Source: a virus. Taken from it: a stretch of DNA of 28,651 bases. The notes below the pieces were generated by a model, which was not told the origin of the DNA, did no database searches, and saw only the letters and a list, made by a program, of their open reading frames with translations. Positions 4,276 through 24,247 of the stretch are shown piece by piece. Every line of letters starts with the position of its first letter. Position 1 is the stretch's first letter. Both the position numbers and the translations under genes were made by a program. The stretch spans positions 1 to 28,651 of the IMG/VR virus record IMGVR_UViG_3300014911_000021. One strand, 5' to 3'.

Positions 4276-5901
4276 TTAAAGTTCGCCCGGTTCCGACCTG
4301 GCGCCAACACGACTCTCACCAACAACAGGATTGTAATTTATGCTATTGTCGTAATAGTGGGTCACGGAAGCGCCCCCTCGTTGCCCCCGAAGATCAGAGA
4401 GGGCTTGCTCGGCAGCTTGCACCTTTATCGCAGGTAAGCCGCCGCGATACAACTCCTCAATAGGCCAAGTAGTCATCCCTGCAATATCACCGCTAATGGC
4501 GTTAATGACACGGGCTCGCCTTTCCCGCTCCGCCTCAGTTAAGTCGTCGGCGGGTATCTGCTGCAATTCAGACCGAATTTCCTCAAGGGCCATAACATAG
4601 GGTTCGAGTCGATCCCTGACCCAGCGGTCAGCACCGCGAGAGACAAGGGCTTCGTGTTGCTTGCGCATCCTTGCAATTCTTCTTTGTGCACCGCCGAAAC
4701 GTGGACCTATTTCAAGCTCAACTTCCGCCTTAGCGGCCTCCATTTGTCGCTGCTTTGCGAGGTCGTACCCCAGGTAGGCTTCCGTGATAGGTCTAATCTG
4801 CTCGGGACCGGCCGCCCCAACCTTTTCGGCGGCGGCGAGTCTGCTGGCGATTGCTTTTGGGGACGCGAACTTCCCCAAGGCTGTTGTTAGTTCTCCGGGG
4901 AAGCCCTGGGCAGCGAGTATCTGCGTTCTCTGAGATTCCGGCAGGCTTGAAATATAATCGATAGTTGCCTGCATTCGCTCATCCGTTGAGAGGCCCTGCC
5001 ACTTTAAGCCTAACGCCTTCTCCATTGCTGCGATTGGCTTCGGATAAACGCCGGATGCAACCCTTGATGCCTGTTCGAGCATTGTTGCGGCTAACAACTC
5101 GTTCGATGCCACAGCCAGGGAGCCGACATACCCGCTAATAGCCGCACCGAGTGTGGCGCCTTCGCCTGATGTCAAATAGGCTGTGCCGCCCTTTTGCAGA
5201 CCGGTTAGGTACTGGCCGAAGTCAGTAGACGTGCTTGCGGTGTAGCCAGCGTAAAGTTTACTAAAAAATCCTTTGTACGCTTCCCCTGTCGCTGCCGTTC
5301 CGGCGACGCCAGCGAACTTGAAAAACTTGCCTACCTCTGCTGCACCCAGGCCAGCAGCGCCGAACATAGGCGAAATATCCATGAGCAGTTGCATGATGGC
5401 CGGGTTCTTGATTCCGCCCTGGGCGGCAAAAGCAATGTCGGCGGCGATCATCATCTGGCCGGCGGCGCCGACCGAAGGCAAAGCACCTGCTTTTTGGATG
5501 CCAATAGCTTTTCTGGCCCATTCGGCCTGCTTACCGATCGTGCCGGTCTGTAATTCGAGGGCCTGGCCTATCTCAGCATAAGACAGGGAGCTTTCGTAAA
5601 ACTCTTTTTGCAGTTGTGCGATACGCTCGAGCTTTTCAATTATAGCCGCAAGTGCCTTTTGGATGCCCTGTAGGCCCGCCCACGCCCCGATGAAACCGAC
5701 AATTTGATTTTTAAGACCGCTAAACACGCCGCCCATGCGAGACAACTTCTGCGTTGTCTTTTCGGTGGCATCGGCACCCCGCCTTTGCCCTTCGGCGGTT
5801 TTTTCGCCGACACCTTTTGCGGCGGCGCCGACCTTTTCGAGCTTTTGCTTGCTCTCCTCGGCGCCGGGCGTCTTTACGTGTATGTTTACGTCTTTGGCCA
5901 T
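4276..5901 (-). CDS. Tail tape measure protein
   Basis: A 541-residue protein that sets tail length and is carried inside the tail tube. The first 60 residues are a charged coiled coil (EESKQKLEKVGAAAKGVGEK), followed by a hydrophobic helix at about 66-90 (IVGFIGAWAGLQGIQKALAA) and a long alanine/glycine-rich helical body. A second charged coiled coil lies at 380-480. It is short for a tape measure, so the tail should be short for a siphovirus, on the order of 80 nm if the usual ratio of about 0.15 nm per residue holds. It lies directly after the tail tube gene, with a 28-base gap. No lytic transglycosylase or peptidase insert is visible. Confidence 0.85.
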   Translation of the reverse strand: MAKDVNIHVKTPGAEESKQKLEKVGAAAKGVGEKTAEGQRRGADATEKTTQKLSRMGGVFSGLKNQIVGFIGAWAGLQGIQKALAAIIEKLERIAQLQKEFYESSLSYAEIGQALELQTGTIGKQAEWARKAIGIQKAGALPSVGAAGQMMIAADIAFAAQGGIKNPAIMQLLMDISPMFGAAGLGAAEVGKFFKFAGVAGTAATGEAYKGFFSKLYAGYTASTSTDFGQYLTGLQKGGTAYLTSGEGATLGAAISGYVGSLAVASNELLAATMLEQASRVASGVYPKPIAAMEKALGLKWQGLSTDERMQATIDYISSLPESQRTQILAAQGFPGELTTALGKFASPKAIASRLAAAEKVGAAGPEQIRPITEAYLGYDLAKQRQMEAAKAEVELEIGPRFGGAQRRIARMRKQHEALVSRGADRWVRDRLEPYVMALEEIRSELQQIPADDLTEAERERRARVINAISGDIAGMTTWPIEELYRGGLPAIKVQAAEQALSDLRGQRGGASVTHYYDNSINYNPVVGESRVGARSEPGEL

Positions 5902-18008: not shown

Positions 18009-18150
18009 AGTTTCAGCAACTCAGCCGACGGGCTGTGATTTTCCAGCTCATCGAGCGGATGCTGCCGGCATCCGCGATCCGGCCCGGGGCCGGAATTAAA
18101 AAAAGACTATAAAGGTATATCGGCTGGAGTCAAGAAAAAAAATTGAAATT
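18009..18150. other. Intergenic stretch with two tandem hairpins
   Basis: No gene is seen. GCGGATGC at 18055-18062 pairs with GCATCCGC at 18068-18075 over a TGCCG loop, and TCCGGCC at 18078-18084 pairs with GGCCGGA at 18088-18094. A run of A residues follows on the plus strand, so neither hairpin is a normal terminator for leftward transcription. They would lie in the 5' leader of the CsrA-like gene. The TGCCG loop and its GCTGCCGGC centre are shared with the hairpin at 19797-19819. Confidence 0.5.
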
Positions 18151-18525
18151 TTATGATTTATTTTTGGAGCGGGTGTTTTCGGCAATAATCTTCAGTAGGT
18201 CGATGATATCCTGGATGCCGAGGAACCATCGCAAAAAGGCCGATGCCACGAGCACTATGAGGAGCGGGACTATTACATACGCACACGCTATGCCAATCAT
18301 AGCAAACGTTTTTGGCTTGCAAGCGATAAGGGCGGTTAAGGCAATTAAAGCCCCTGCTATAATCAGGCTAATTATTATCTCAGGCCGAAGAATTTTCTTG
18401 GATATTGAATTTTTGAATCTTGCAACAACAAACCGCTCGCCGCAGACCTCGCACTTCATCTTACCGCCAGCGTAATCGCCGGGGACGGTGTGAATGTTCT
18501 CGCAATGTGGACATTGGGTCTTCAT
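18151..18525 (-). CDS. Zinc-ribbon membrane protein, unrecognised
   Basis: A 124-residue protein. Residues 1-30 form a four-cysteine zinc ribbon (CPHC at 5-8, CEVC at 25-28). Two transmembrane helices follow at about 49-69 (EIIISLIIAGALIALTALIA) and 74-98, then a short basic tail (ENTRSKNKS). The cytosolic zinc ribbon plus two-helix hairpin is common in bacterial membrane proteins of unknown role. It overlaps the 114-residue membrane gene by four bases (ATGA). It may be an accessory protein acting at the envelope, such as holin-like or superinfection-exclusion; neither is proven. Confidence 0.6.
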   Translation of the reverse strand: MKTQCPHCENIHTVPGDYAGGKMKCEVCGERFVVARFKNSISKKILRPEIIISLIIAGALIALTALIACKPKTFAMIGIACAYVIVPLLIVLVASAFLRWFLGIQDIIDLLKIIAENTRSKNKS

Positions 18526-18887: not shown

Positions 18888-19361
18888 TCACTTCTTGTGT
18901 TTTTTGCGGGGACCTAACTCGGATTCATAGATAGAAAGCAAATCCCCGAGCATTTCTTTATCCTTTTTTGACAATTTATCATAATGGGAAATTGCGTGTT
19001 TTAACGAATCAACTGCGAAGGAAATATTCAGGCGGGAATCCAATCCGCTTAAATCTTTAAGGCCTTTAGCTATCAACGCGGATACTGTGTTGCGTTCCTT
19101 TTGACTCAAAGATTCAAACCATTTTATTGTTTCGGTTCGCTGGATCATATAGGAAAGAGTTGCATAAACATCCTCACATTCGTCAGACATCAACATGGCT
19201 TGAAGTGTTATCGGGAGGACAAGCCACACCCGCAAAGCACTCTCGACGGCGCGATACTTTATCTGCCTTCGCTCCTCGACTTGTGCTGCAAACCGTTCTG
19301 CAATTCCTTTATCAATATCGTGATTGAACGGCGCTTTGTTAGGATTTTGCTCTCTCGGCAT
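18888..19361 (-). CDS. Probable ribbon-helix-helix regulator
   Basis: A 157-residue protein from the ATG at 19361 (PREQNPNKAPFNHD); an ATG at 19382 is also in frame, and neither has a clear ribosome-binding site. Residues 12-50 (FNHDIDKGIAERFAAQVEER, RAVESALRVWL) fit a ribbon-helix-helix domain: one strand, helix A, turn, helix B. The C-terminal 100 residues are helical (LSQKERNTVSALIAKGL) and may serve in oligomerisation. It is the first gene of the leftward block and faces the rightward regulator across an operator rich in ACAAG repeats, so it may be the phage repressor. The call rests on pattern only. Confidence 0.5.
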   Translation of the reverse strand: MPREQNPNKAPFNHDIDKGIAERFAAQVEERRQIKYRAVESALRVWLVLPITLQAMLMSDECEDVYATLSYMIQRTETIKWFESLSQKERNTVSALIAKGLKDLSGLDSRLNISFAVDSLKHAISHYDKLSKKDKEMLGDLLSIYESELGPRKKHKK

Positions 19362-19403
19362 AAAATTTTTTCCCACACACATACTACGGTAAACCCAGAA
19401 ATA

Positions 19404-19473
19404 ACAAGGCCTTACAAGATTATCAACCTTGTTTGCCCCCTATTTTAACAAGAAAAAACAAGTATTATACAAG
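19404..19473. promoter_or_regulatory. Putative operator: phased ACAAG repeats
   Basis: ACAAG occurs at 19404, 19414, 19448, 19458 and 19469, with an inverted copy (CTTGT) at 19428-19432. Neighbouring copies are 10-11 bp apart, about one helical turn. The cluster fills the gap between two divergent genes whose products both look like ribbon-helix-helix proteins, a class that binds short phased repeats. AAGGCCTT at 19406-19413 is an additional palindrome. Confidence 0.6.
19464..19469 (-). promoter_or_regulatory. Candidate leftward -10 box
   Basis: A perfect TATAAT reads leftward at 19469-19464, about 100 bases before the regulator ATG at 19361. A good -35 box at 16-18 bases is not seen. The box touches the last ACAAG repeat, so occupancy of the operator should repress it. 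Confidence 0.35.
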
Positions 19474-19480
19474 ATTTCCC

Positions 19481-19508
19481 TTGACTTTTGCCGATATATC
19501 ACTATACG
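19481..19508 (+). promoter_or_regulatory. Candidate rightward early promoter
   Basis: TTGACT at 19481-19486 and TATACG at 19503-19508 are separated by 16 bases, a plausible sigma-70 promoter just downstream of the ACAAG cluster. Transcription would start near 19515, only about three bases before the ATG at 19518. Confidence 0.45.
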
Positions 19509-19517
19509 TTGTATGTT

Positions 19518-19781
19518 ATGAAAGTTGAACAAATACAACTCTCGGTTAAGCGAAAAGTGGACAGGCCTATCCTGACGAAACTCAATATGGTTGCGTCTAT
19601 CGTCCACCGCAACGCCCATGACACGGCGAGGTACTTCCTGGTACGGTCATTAGATCAGTTCATCAAAGATTATGATTCGGCCAGGTACAAGGTATCTGGC
19701 ATGACCGTAGACCAATTTCTCGCCGAGGATGGTATCGGCCAGTCAACAACCCAGTCAGCAGCTCAGCCGATGGTCGGCTGA
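19518..19781 (+). CDS. Probable ribbon-helix-helix regulator, first rightward gene
   Basis: An 87-residue protein from the ATG at 19518 (MKVEQIQLSVKRKVDRPILT). The strand VEQIQLSV is followed by helix A (ILTKLNMVASIVHRN) and helix B (AHDTARYFLVRSLDQFIKDYD), the order of a ribbon-helix-helix DNA-binding domain. It is the first gene of the early block, facing the leftward regulator. It could act like Ner or Cro in Mu-type switches. An in-frame TTG at 19488 would place the start inside the promoter and is rejected. No Shine-Dalgarno sequence precedes the ATG, so the message may be leaderless. The stop codon lies in a perfect 9-bp hairpin. Confidence 0.55.
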   Translation: MKVEQIQLSVKRKVDRPILTKLNMVASIVHRNAHDTARYFLVRSLDQFIKDYDSARYKVSGMTVDQFLAEDGIGQSTTQSAAQPMVG

Positions 19782-19989
19782 GATAATATATCAAACCCGG
19801 CACGCTGCCGGCGTGCCGGCGAAAACAGCGGGCCGTCAGGCCCGATACGAGCGTTTTGCGTTTCATAAGGACGGTGTCCGGTGGAGTTGCCAGCGAAACC
19901 GGACACCGGGTAAGAAACCGGCCTTTAGGCCGTTAAGGATTTGCGGCGGTTGGCGTTGGAAGCGCTGGCAAACCACCCGCGACCGCCGC
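19762..19989 (+). ncRNA. Hairpin-dense untranslated region (structured RNA candidate)
   Basis: Six inverted repeats, all perfect over the arms given, lie in 228 bases. CTCAGCCGA/TCGGCTGAG is at 19762-19782 (9 bp) and CCGGCACGC/GCGTGCCGG at 19797-19819 (9 bp). CGGGCC/GGCCCG at 19829-19844 has 6 bp with a GTCA loop, and CGGTGTCCGG/CCGGACACCG at 19872-19908 has 10 bp with a 17-base loop. CGGCC/GGCCG is at 19919-19932 (5 bp) and GCGGCGGT/ACCGCCGC at 19943-19989 (8 bp). None is followed by a T-run. The region has no good ORF. It may be a structured early RNA, a leader for the following genes, or a string of REP-like palindromes. Confidence 0.45.
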
Positions 19990-20036: not shown

Positions 20037-20222
20037 ATGGCATATAAGCCGGTCGAGAATATCAGCTTCAACAAGAAAAAGCACCCGGGACTGCTCTGGA
20101 TAGCGAACGTGATCGGAGAGGCAACAAACGAAGAGGCTGCGACCGTTGTGAGGAGACTGGTTGAGCAGGCGGGCACCGAAGAGATTGAAGGGCTTGGAAT
20201 AGACCGTATATTCAATTGTTAA
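20037..20222 (+). CDS. Small possible DNA-binding protein
   Basis: A 61-residue protein (MAYKPVENISFNKKKHPGLL). A short basic N-terminus precedes helix-rich sequence LLWIANVIGEATNEEAATVV RRLVEQAG, which could be helix A and B of a small ribbon-helix-helix or similar domain. GGAT lies eight to nine bases upstream of the ATG. The stop at 20222 is followed by the hydrolase gene. Being short, it could be a chance ORF, but codon use looks like its neighbours. Confidence 0.45.
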   Translation: MAYKPVENISFNKKKHPGLLWIANVIGEATNEEAATVVRRLVEQAGTEEIEGLGIDRIFNC

Positions 20223-21263: not shown

Positions 21264-21407
21264 AACCACGGAAAAGATAACAATCGGTGGAATCCGTGAA
21301 ATCCGCCCGCCGTGCCGCCGGCAAGTCGCGGCAGGTGGTTAAAAAATGAAAAATATCGGCAGTATTTGAAAATCGCGGAGCGAGTGGATGATGCAGGGAT
21401 GCCGAAG
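21264..21407. other. Short gap with dispersed repeat-like sequence
   Basis: Bases 21264-21302 contain CCACGG and a GTGGAATCCGTGAAATCC-like stretch. This belongs to the same CACGGATT-type motif seen at 11-30 and 16221-16245. A possible in-frame 5' extension of the helix-turn-helix gene (from GTG at 21312) crosses the second half but lacks a ribosome-binding site. Confidence 0.4.
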
Positions 21408-21902
21408 ATGAACGAAACAAACGGGATAATTGACGTGAGTGACGACAATATCTTATTGCAGCAGGTTGCCGAAGAGCACGGCGTGACGGCCAAGCAGATA
21501 GCGATGCTGACCGGCAGGGCGGTATCGACTGTCTATAAGTACCTTGCCGGCGGGTTGTCGATACCATCGGTTGTGTGGCGGCAATTATATCAAAAAACCG
21601 CCGACCCGCGAATCATCCAACTGATAACCGGTGATACGCTGGTAGCCATTGTTCCTCTTGTGCCGGCTGCGATAAAGGTGGATGCTCCCACGCTTTCAAA
21701 ACTCATCGATGCCCGCAAAAAACAGATACGCTGCGAGGAGTACGCGATAAAGATTCTTGAGGATGGCAGGGTCGATGAGGCCGACAAAAAAGCGGTGGCC
21801 GGCTACAAAAAAGAGTTCGCTAATATGGTTGTGTGCCAGTCGCAGCTATTTCAGGCAATAACCGGACAGTTTGAATCCGTCTGCGGGAGGTCGAAGGCAT
21901 GA
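21408..21902 (+). CDS. Helix-turn-helix regulator, CII-like
   Basis: A 164-residue protein from the ATG at 21408 (AGGG nine bases upstream); the ATG at 21399 and a GTG at 21312 are also in frame. The first half has a helix-turn-helix: LLQQVAEEHGVTAKQIAMLT, then GRAVSTVYKYLAGG. It is followed by WRQLYQKTADPRIIQLITGD, a pattern like phage regulatory CII-type proteins, in which a 'D-rii-litgd' box follows the helix-turn-helix. The C-terminal half is a charged helical region (DEADKKAVAGYKKEFANMVV). It probably controls early or late transcription. The stop overlaps the next ATG by four bases. Confidence 0.6.
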   Translation: MNETNGIIDVSDDNILLQQVAEEHGVTAKQIAMLTGRAVSTVYKYLAGGLSIPSVVWRQLYQKTADPRIIQLITGDTLVAIVPLVPAAIKVDAPTLSKLIDARKKQIRCEEYAIKILEDGRVDEADKKAVAGYKKEFANMVVCQSQLFQAITGQFESVCGRSKA

Positions 21903-22276: not shown

Positions 22277-22312
22277 CGGCTGGGCAAGAAGGTACGAAAG
22301 AGAGTCGTGGCC

Positions 22313-24247
22313 ATGATTAAATATTTCGATGTTGATGAAGTTGCAAGGGTTTGTGCCTGGACGAAGCGCCACGTTCAGCGGCTGTGCCAGTCGGGTGAGC
22401 TGGCCGGAGCGGTCAAAAAAAACGGTCGTTGGCAGATACCGGTAACGGCTGATCCGAGATTGGCCGGCATCACAACACCTGAGCAGCTCACGAGGATGGC
22501 CGAAATCGAACTGGTCCCGGCAAAAAAACGGGATGAGGCATTGACAAGATTGGGACTCATAAAATCTTTTGAGACGTTCGCCGCAGAGGCGAATATCACG
22601 CGAAAGGTCGCCATAGCACAGTTCGCTGCGGCGAACGATGTGACGGTTCGTTCGCTCTATCGATGGATCGCGAATTACAGACGCGATGGCTTGATGGGCC
22701 TGGTCGATTCACGTGGCGGTCGCGCAGCCGAGATAATCAGCCCTGAGGCCTTCGATTACTTTAAGCTCAACTGGCTTGATGCCAGGCAGCCAACAATCAA
22801 GATGATATGGCAGATGACACAATTCATCAACCAAAAGGAATCACGCGGCTGGCGTGTGCCGAGTTACGGGTGGATGGTCCGCCTGGTCGAGGAGCAGATA
22901 CCATACCCTGTGCAGGTGCTGCATCGGGAGGGTCAAGCGGCCTACAATGCCAAGTGTGCGCCGTACATACTGACTGACCCTGATAGTATCGAGCCGGGCA
23001 GTGTGTGGGTTGGCGACCATCATCAACTGAACTGCTGGATAATGTATCGGGGCCGATGGATACGGCCGTGGATTACGGCCTGGCAGGACATGAGGAGTCG
23101 GGCGATAGTCGGCTGGTATTTTTCCGCCGGGCCGAATCAGGTGACGATTATGATCGCCATGAAACGGGCGATCGAAAGGTACGGGCCGCCGGATTCTGCG
23201 AAAATAGACAACGGCAGGGATTACGACAGCGAGATGTTCACCGGTACCACCAAGCAGCGGCGGATATTGAACAAGGGCTATATAGACGAGGCGAACGTTA
23301 CCGGCATTTATGCTATGCTCGGCATAAGCGTGTCGTTTGCTATTCCATACCATCCGCAATCCAAGCCGATTGAGCGGTGGTTCGATACGTTCGACCAACA
23401 GTTTTGCAAGCAGCTCGCCACATATTGCGGCAAAGACAGCGGCAGAAAACCCGAGTACATGAAGGCACTCCTGGAAAGCGACAAGGCGAAAGCCGCTGCT
23501 TACGATCTCGATGGCCTGGCAAATCTGGCGGGCGAATATATCGAGGCGTACAATTGCCGGCCACATACCGGGCGAGGGATGGAGGGCAAAAGCCCCGCCG
23601 AGGTGCTGGCGACTCGACAAAGCAGAAAGATGCTTGCCGATGGTGTGCTGGATTTGCTGATGCGTGTGTGGAGCGGCGAGCTGACGGTCGGCAAAAACGG
23701 CGTCAAGTTCAAGGGCCTTTGGTTCGGCCAATACGATGCGGCTCTTTTAATGCACCAGGGACGCAAGGTCCGCGTGGCATACGATCCGGACGACCTCGAA
23801 AAGGTCTGGGTCTATGATGCAACCACCTACAAGCTTCTCACTATCGCCGAGCAGGCACAACTGATTCGATACGGCACGGGCGTTAGCGAGACGGCATTGA
23901 GAGAGGCCTCGGCCAAAAAACAGAGGAGCCGCCGACTTATCAAACAGGCAGCGGGCGCAGCCCGCACAGCACATACCGACCTTGCGGCGCTCGCAGTGGA
24001 GGCGATGCAAGATGCCACACAAGGGGCCACGGGCGGCGACGGGGGATCGCAGACGCTAAGACCGGTCACAACCCCGTTAGATAGCCAAGTCGGGGCACAC
24101 AGGCGATTGGACAGGCAAAGAAGGGTTAAAAAGGCTGCAGGCGCCGAGAGCATCGACACTGTATTCGACCTGGGGTTTGATGAGATAGAGGTAAGACGTG
24201 ATGGAGAGAACGTGATAGATTTAGGTTTGTTAGATGAGCGACAATGA
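22313..24247 (+). CDS. MuA-type DDE transposase
   Basis: A 644-residue transposase from the ATG at 22313 (AAAGAGAG about eight bases upstream); GTG at 22307 is an alternative. Residues 1-45 are an excisionase/MerR-like helix-turn-helix (YFDVDEVARVCAWTKRHVQR). Residues 80-140 hold a second helix-turn-helix (VAIAQFAAANDVTVRSLYRW). The catalytic core has VGDHHQLN (Asp235), KIDNGRDY (Asp299) and PIERWFD (Glu354), spaced 64 and 55 residues as in MuA. The Mu-transposase C-terminal beta barrel follows at about 440-510 (GKNGVKFKGLWFGQYDAALL), then a basic tail for MuB contact. It carries out replicative transposition. The stop lies inside the MuB-like gene (14-base overlap). Confidence 0.93.
   Translation: MIKYFDVDEVARVCAWTKRHVQRLCQSGELAGAVKKNGRWQIPVTADPRLAGITTPEQLTRMAEIELVPAKKRDEALTRLGLIKSFETFAAEANITRKVAIAQFAAANDVTVRSLYRWIANYRRDGLMGLVDSRGGRAAEIISPEAFDYFKLNWLDARQPTIKMIWQMTQFINQKESRGWRVPSYGWMVRLVEEQIPYPVQVLHREGQAAYNAKCAPYILTDPDSIEPGSVWVGDHHQLNCWIMYRGRWIRPWITAWQDMRSRAIVGWYFSAGPNQVTIMIAMKRAIERYGPPDSAKIDNGRDYDSEMFTGTTKQRRILNKGYIDEANVTGIYAMLGISVSFAIPYHPQSKPIERWFDTFDQQFCKQLATYCGKDSGRKPEYMKALLESDKAKAAAYDLDGLANLAGEYIEAYNCRPHTGRGMEGKSPAEVLATRQSRKMLADGVLDLLMRVWSGELTVGKNGVKFKGLWFGQYDAALLMHQGRKVRVAYDPDDLEKVWVYDATTYKLLTIAEQAQLIRYGTGVSETALREASAKKQRSRRLIKQAAGAARTAHTDLAALAVEAMQDATQGATGGDGGSQTLRPVTTPLDSQVGAHRRLDRQRRVKKAAGAESIDTVFDLGFDEIEVRRDGENVIDLGLLDERQ

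Follow-up and report, generated by a model that had tools for sequence, protein, structure and literature searches.

A 70-bp stretch (19404-19473) of the window, by which we mean the whole 28,651-nt virus record analysed here (IMGVR_UViG_3300014911_000021), is likely the operator array of a temperate-phage immunity module, read by a ribbon-helix-helix (RHH) type repressor that the gene on its left would encode. The word ACAAG occurs there on the plus strand at 19404, 19414, 19448, 19458 and 19469, and on the minus strand at 19428-19432. The first two copies form a pair with a step of 10 (19404-19418), and the last three follow each other in steps of 10 and 11 (19448-19473) and end 7 bp before the -35 box of the rightward promoter. 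These coordinates, together with sequence shuffles, bear out the first-pass annotation, which had reported five direct copies and one inverted copy in 70 bases, with steps of 10 and then of 10 and 11. The ACAAG group is the 5-mer cluster of highest density in the 28.6-kb window. In 3000 dinucleotide shuffles of the 135-bp intergenic region, the most copies of any 5-mer within 70 bp was five, seen once, and no 5-mer reached six; ACAAG itself came to a maximum of four copies, in 1 of 5000 shuffles. The window array was also significant in a test for self-matches at a lag of 10 (p = 0.013). Across the 2.64-Mb assembly, the remaining ACAAG-N5-6-ACAAG matches are single pairs and the clustered array is unique.

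The array lies between two divergent genes. The left gene, coding for a predicted RHH-type repressor of 164 aa, is at 18888-19382 on the minus strand, or 18888-19361 if translation begins at MPREQN, and the right gene, coding for a predicted RHH protein of 87 aa, is at 19518-19781 on the plus strand. Both start away from the array, as had been proposed, and the DNA between them is the divergent regulatory region of a leftward operon and of the early transposition operon. The leftward operon consists of the left gene followed by small membrane and zinc-ribbon genes, and the early operon is ordered right gene, HTH gene (21312-21902), MuA, MuB, GemA and Gam. Terminase and other late genes lie to the left of the array on the minus strand. 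Matches to DDE_2, Mu-transpos_C, AAA/phrog_296, GemA and Mu_Gam place the window, an entire contig from a metagenome-derived genome, among Mu-like transposable phages, here as a prophage of a Planctomycetota bacterium; its MuA (22307-24247) starts with an HTH_17 (excisionase-like) domain. The zinc-ribbon gene (18151-18525) has the same slot after the left gene in most relatives, several with apparent membrane stretches, and is a candidate for a lysogen-expressed function such as superinfection exclusion.

The rightward early promoter reads TTGACT-16-TATACG (19481-19508, plus strand), with TTGACT at 19481-19486 and GCCGA at 19490-19494 in the spacer, and the position of the ATG at 19518 suggests that its transcript is probably leaderless or nearly so. 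This promoter is near-constant across relatives, as TTGACTTYTGCCGAYATA and variants, and TTG-N-GCCGA is kept in most of them. One ACAAG group had been described as overlapping a leftward TATAAT box and lying just upstream of TTGACT. Both boxes are present, with TTGACT just after the array and TATAAT at 19469-19464, but this TATAAT is without a clear -35 and a consensus scan scored another candidate leftward promoter highest, TTAAAA-18-GATAAT (19448-19419, minus strand, 9/12; consensus scan only). A second promoter of the same kind as the rightward one, TTGACTCCAGCCGATATA..TATAGT, points leftward at 18106-18133 (minus strand), between the left operon and the late genes. GCCGA is found in this second promoter too, at 18120-18124 on the minus strand in the window and at 5561 on the minus strand in the related locus L052. 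As a general host promoter element GCCGA was rejected, since it is absent at that position before 28 host tRNA genes; most other TTGAC-N4-GCCGA sites in the host do not resemble promoters, with L102 as a possible exception.

Downstream of the promoter, three GC-rich hairpins occupy 19762-19844 (plus strand), the first running across the right gene's stop codon. Most relatives likewise have a GC-rich hairpin that overlaps the end of their first early gene at its stop codon, often followed by a second (the window, L073, L070, L072, L059, L032, L054, L069, L056, L037, L057, L060 and L065). The 23 loci examined contain 43 hairpins compared with 8.2 expected, and the stem sequence varies between relatives with pairing kept. 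The hairpin at the stop codon explains the odd conserved C-terminal ending QPxVG and, having no U-run after it, is not a plain terminator.

Relatives were collected with a MuA profile, which retrieved Planctomycetota prophages from genome and viral collections. Those with named records are, with few exceptions, MAGs of Planctomycetota, a good number of which belong to Phycisphaerae, and the divergent left/right pair is at the same place in most relatives with enough flanking sequence. A 55% identical MuA (L033) is on a contig binned as Deltaproteobacteria, reflecting either misbinning or cross-phylum transfer. Viral-contig scans with single proteins, either regulator or MuB, returned nothing, and the left protein alone as query against 392 genomes of the phylum found only itself. 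A profile of the window's left-protein group yielded eight further loci, chosen by protein alone, which formed a held-out set. Some of these (L187, L185 and L188) apparently lie in integrase-type elements, judging by neighbouring genes, which suggests that the module also occurs outside Mu-like phages.

The exact word ACAAG is private to the window prophage: no relative has it as an array, no close relative sharing the word was found, and a sibling search for ACAAG before TTGACTTNTGCCGA gave six contigs, all lacking a repeat array or related genes. What is conserved is the spacing. Nineteen homologous regions between the divergent genes of Mu-like prophages, for the most part on Planctomycetota or viral contigs, gave 28 pooled 5-mer self-matches at lag 10, compared with 4.9 +/- 2.9 in shuffles and 7.2 +/- 4.4 (highest value 21 among 300 sets) in actual sequence of slightly lower A+T content drawn from the same loci. 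Weaker peaks were seen at lags 20 and 21, with no other comparable peak. A mismatch-tolerant test gave a pooled z of 5.9 at lag 10 and below 2 at the other lags from 7 to 13, and the eight held-out regions gave 18 matches at lag 10 vs 2.5 +/- 2.0 (z 6.6); the loci are related and not fully independent, and both z values overstate their independence. Individually, 7 of the 19 regions reached p < 0.05 at lag 10, and significant 10-bp phasing is absent in about half of the 19, namely those of the left-protein groups L032/L051/L057 and L062/L069/L041.

The words repeated at lag 10 differ from locus to locus, for instance GAGAA/GGGAA/AGGAA in L042, TTTTCTG in L056 and TTCTTACAAA/TACTTACAAC in L037, and in the held-out set CTGTA/CTGTA/CTGTT in L160 and steps of TCACG/TACG/CACG in L167. 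Where the window has ACAAG, other relatives have RRGAA, CTGTA, TTCTG, TAAGAA or TACGWATTTA. The architecture is conserved: short words, differing between loci, recur in 10-bp steps ahead of the same promoter. The first-pass annotation had staked its reading on conservation of the ACAAG spacing among relatives, and in both sets of regions the one-turn phasing is kept and the word is not.

Comparisons between pairs of phages revealed which protein the array follows. For hundreds of bases to either side of a stretch at -400 to 0 relative to the -35 box, L051 and L071 agree at about 100%; within it identity drops to about 50%, apart from one more similar stretch inside the left gene. From the rightward -35 box onward they are again 98-100% identical and their right genes are identical. 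The exchanged stretch therefore extends from the middle of the left gene, including its N-terminus, through the array up to the rightward -35 box. A similar pattern separates L072 from L070 and L073: its left gene falls into another group than theirs and its array differs, but the promoter is shared and the right proteins are near-identical. In both comparisons left-gene sequence and array are exchanged together between otherwise similar phages, which is the pattern of heteroimmunity. From these swaps we conclude that the array belongs to the left protein and not to both, correcting the earlier suggestion that both RHH proteins read it, and that the left gene, judging from these sequence comparisons, behaves like the repressor of the module. 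In four loci (L035, L043, L031 and L054) the left slot is taken by a CI-like XRE gene, and the DNA between the divergent genes is without a significant lag-10 peak. With such loci among the relatives, and an HTH protein in the window's own early operon, the view that RHH repressors replace the CI/Ner type was too strong.

The fold of the left protein was approached through profiles. It has an RHH-like N-terminal region and a conserved lysine-rich C-terminal tail, and its order of secondary structure (extended, helix, helix) fits RHH. An AlphaFold2 monomer model from five sequences was of low confidence (pLDDT 55) and its structure matches were uninformative. A profile of 14 sequences covering the N-terminus of the left protein group (A7) matched SvtR best among solved structures (2kel, E 0.046) and DinJ third (E 1.1), colinear across the RHH domain at weak E-values. 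No Pfam RHH family matched any member of groups A2, A4 or A7, or either flanking protein, the sole hint being a sub-threshold RHH_4 match (E 0.014) to the left protein of L065; this lowers the case for membership in a sequence family and not that for the fold. A direct comparison of left-family and right-family profiles gave nothing, and the left groups A7 and A5 align weakly. Left genes of relatives encode 100-160 aa and fall into several groups with little similarity, many with a lysine-rich C-terminal tail. Given these matches, the left protein probably has an RHH fold.

The right protein gave a confident model (pLDDT about 89-96 over residues 1-50), with an extended segment at 1-12 and helices at 13-29 and 33-60. 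Its top Foldseek and VIA matches are nearly all RHH proteins (TacA, AtaR, KacA, Arc, PutA, AmrZ, CopG and NikR), the best with Z 5.7 and rmsd 2.9 over 56 residues, every Foldseek E-value being at least 0.1. The right protein is therefore predicted to be RHH. Structure prediction, the check that had been suggested for both proteins, thus upheld the proposed fold for the right protein and left an unusable model for the left, for which RHH remains probable from the A7 profile. The right proteins form one alignable family of 19 members, two of them in the window, where an RHH paralogue of 61 aa is encoded at 20037-20222 (plus strand). Relatives outside this family have other RHH-looking small right proteins, and that of L041 (6544-6978) apparently comprises two tandem small RHH-like units in a single chain.

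A further element, AAG-N0-2-CTT, is found near the predicted leftward start in 14 of the 19 related regions (0.7 expected); its window version is AAGGCCTT at 19406-19413. Among its occurrences, in the window and 13 of 18 further related regions, the form GCAAGTCTTTA is frequent, and the element is retained even as arrays and left genes vary. The first ACAAG copy (19404) falls for the most part inside AAGGCCTT, so the first pair and the second group are possibly different things, and the two ACAAG groups may differ in origin.

Several other readings of the array were weighed. The right RHH protein might bind it, as a Cro/Ner or Apl-like factor repressing both promoters, with the left protein acting elsewhere. 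Its RHH fold is the better supported of the two, and phage 186 Apl binds one-turn direct repeats between pR and pL (PMC7498355), but the different arrays beside identical right genes in L051 and L071, and beside near-identical ones in L070, L072 and L073, speak against it, as does the recovery of the held-out arrays through the left protein; we regard this reading as unlikely. An equally unlikely alternative keeps the same switch and changes the fold, with the left protein a winged-helix excisionase of the Cox/Apl kind lying head to tail on phased direct repeats. One-turn direct repeats are a signature of recombination directionality factors (PMC7498355) and the left model is of low confidence; set against this are the end-to-end alignment of A7 with SvtR and DinJ, both RHH, the RHH-like order of secondary structure and the lack of any Pfam HTH or excisionase match to the left protein.

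The Mu operator doubles as an enhancer, and the repeats could mainly serve to enhance transposition, as the internal activation sequence of Mu does, with MuA binding them through its N-terminal HTH_17 domain and an operator function being secondary. The HTH_17 start of the window MuA belongs to an excisionase-like class favouring phased direct repeats. However, the MuA N-terminus is conserved over the family and the repeat word changes with the left gene, making this very improbable as the main function; enhancer use could be an additional role only. Curved AT-rich promoter DNA, in which the 10-bp period would be A-tract phasing with no protein sites, would suit regions of 74% A+T. Yet the lag-10 excess persists for words containing G or C (20 vs 6.3 +/- 4.0, maximum 18 of 300), real stretches with 70% A+T lack it, and the ACAAG, CTGTA and TACG words are not A-tracts. 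The test with G/C-containing words led us to drop this reading, whose chances we consider negligible. A centromere or partition array of the ParR/parC kind was also dropped, there being no ParM or ParA gene next to the pair and the only AAA protein of the early operon being MuB.

In the operator reading that we prefer, RHH dimers of the left repressor would bind ACAAG half-sites side by side on one helix face, about one turn apart, cooperatively covering the area between the leftward promoter and the rightward -35 box. The transposition operon (right RHH gene, HTH gene, MuA and MuB) would then be off, and the left gene would be autoregulated through the same array. The right RHH protein would be the first product of lytic growth and would oppose the repressor in a Cro/Ner-like way, perhaps through the conserved AAG-N-CTT element by the leftward start. 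The N-terminus of the left gene and the array would together be an exchangeable specificity cassette, giving each phage its own word. We infer binding, cooperativity, repression and the role of the right protein from these comparisons, and control of lysogeny is suggested by gene order; the left operon, leading on towards late genes, could also serve late control.

More broadly, we see an even chance that one RHH immunity module is common to Planctomycetota prophages, transposing and integrase-type alike. In this module the DNA-reading end of the repressor would co-evolve with a phased array of a five-base word and the two would be exchanged as a unit, so that many private specificities surround a near-invariant early promoter and RHH proteins flank the switch on either side. 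Textbook accounts of phage immunity centre mostly on HTH repressors acting at a few palindromic operators, and the prophage set described here, from a phylum whose phages have been little studied, seems to rely on RHH repressors and one-turn arrays. A literature search, largely without subscription journals, found no description of RHH immunity in Mu-like or Planctomycetota phages. The natural repressor/word pairs (19 plus eight) bear on the way an RHH protein comes to read a new DNA word and on the origin of immunity groups, and L051 and L071, near-identical apart from the cassette, are a ready-made experiment.

The layout resembles that of Mu, with a divergent repressor and an early operon leading to the A and B genes, although the late genes of the window lie past the left gene and are read leftward. 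The Mu c repressor and Ner belong to the winged-helix/HTH class and not to RHH; neither flanking protein here matches an HTH family, unlike a Mu-type c/Ner switch. Arc and Mnt of P22 are phage RHH repressors too, and the structural matches to the right protein include Arc. They control the secondary immunity region of P22, whereas the RHH genes of the window hold the primary slot beside MuA. SvtR of SIRV1, a viral RHH protein that represses its own gene and is believed to spread along DNA (PMC5569661), is the best solved match of the left profile (2kel), at an E-value not significant by itself; it comes from an archaeal virus, acts on imperfect inverted repeats and has no divergent partner, unlike the window module. 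ParR of R1 and pSK41 binds 10-11 bp direct repeats in parC as RHH dimers with autorepression, and the R1 parC array is split around the promoter of its own operon (PMC5016525). The window differs in that no ParM/ParA partner is seen, the array lies between divergent prophage regulators and its word varies among relatives. Omega (ParB) of pSM19035 is an RHH protein on arrays of short contiguous repeats, of which at least four are needed (PMC9499535), but these are 7-bp heptads with a partition function, compared with 10-bp steps in the window. Apl of phage 186 also has one-turn direct repeats between divergent early promoters (PMC7498355), but is excisionase-type and not a prophage repressor, differing in this from the proposed left protein. 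Comparable use of arrays is thus documented for ParR/parC and omega and, with another fold, for Apl.
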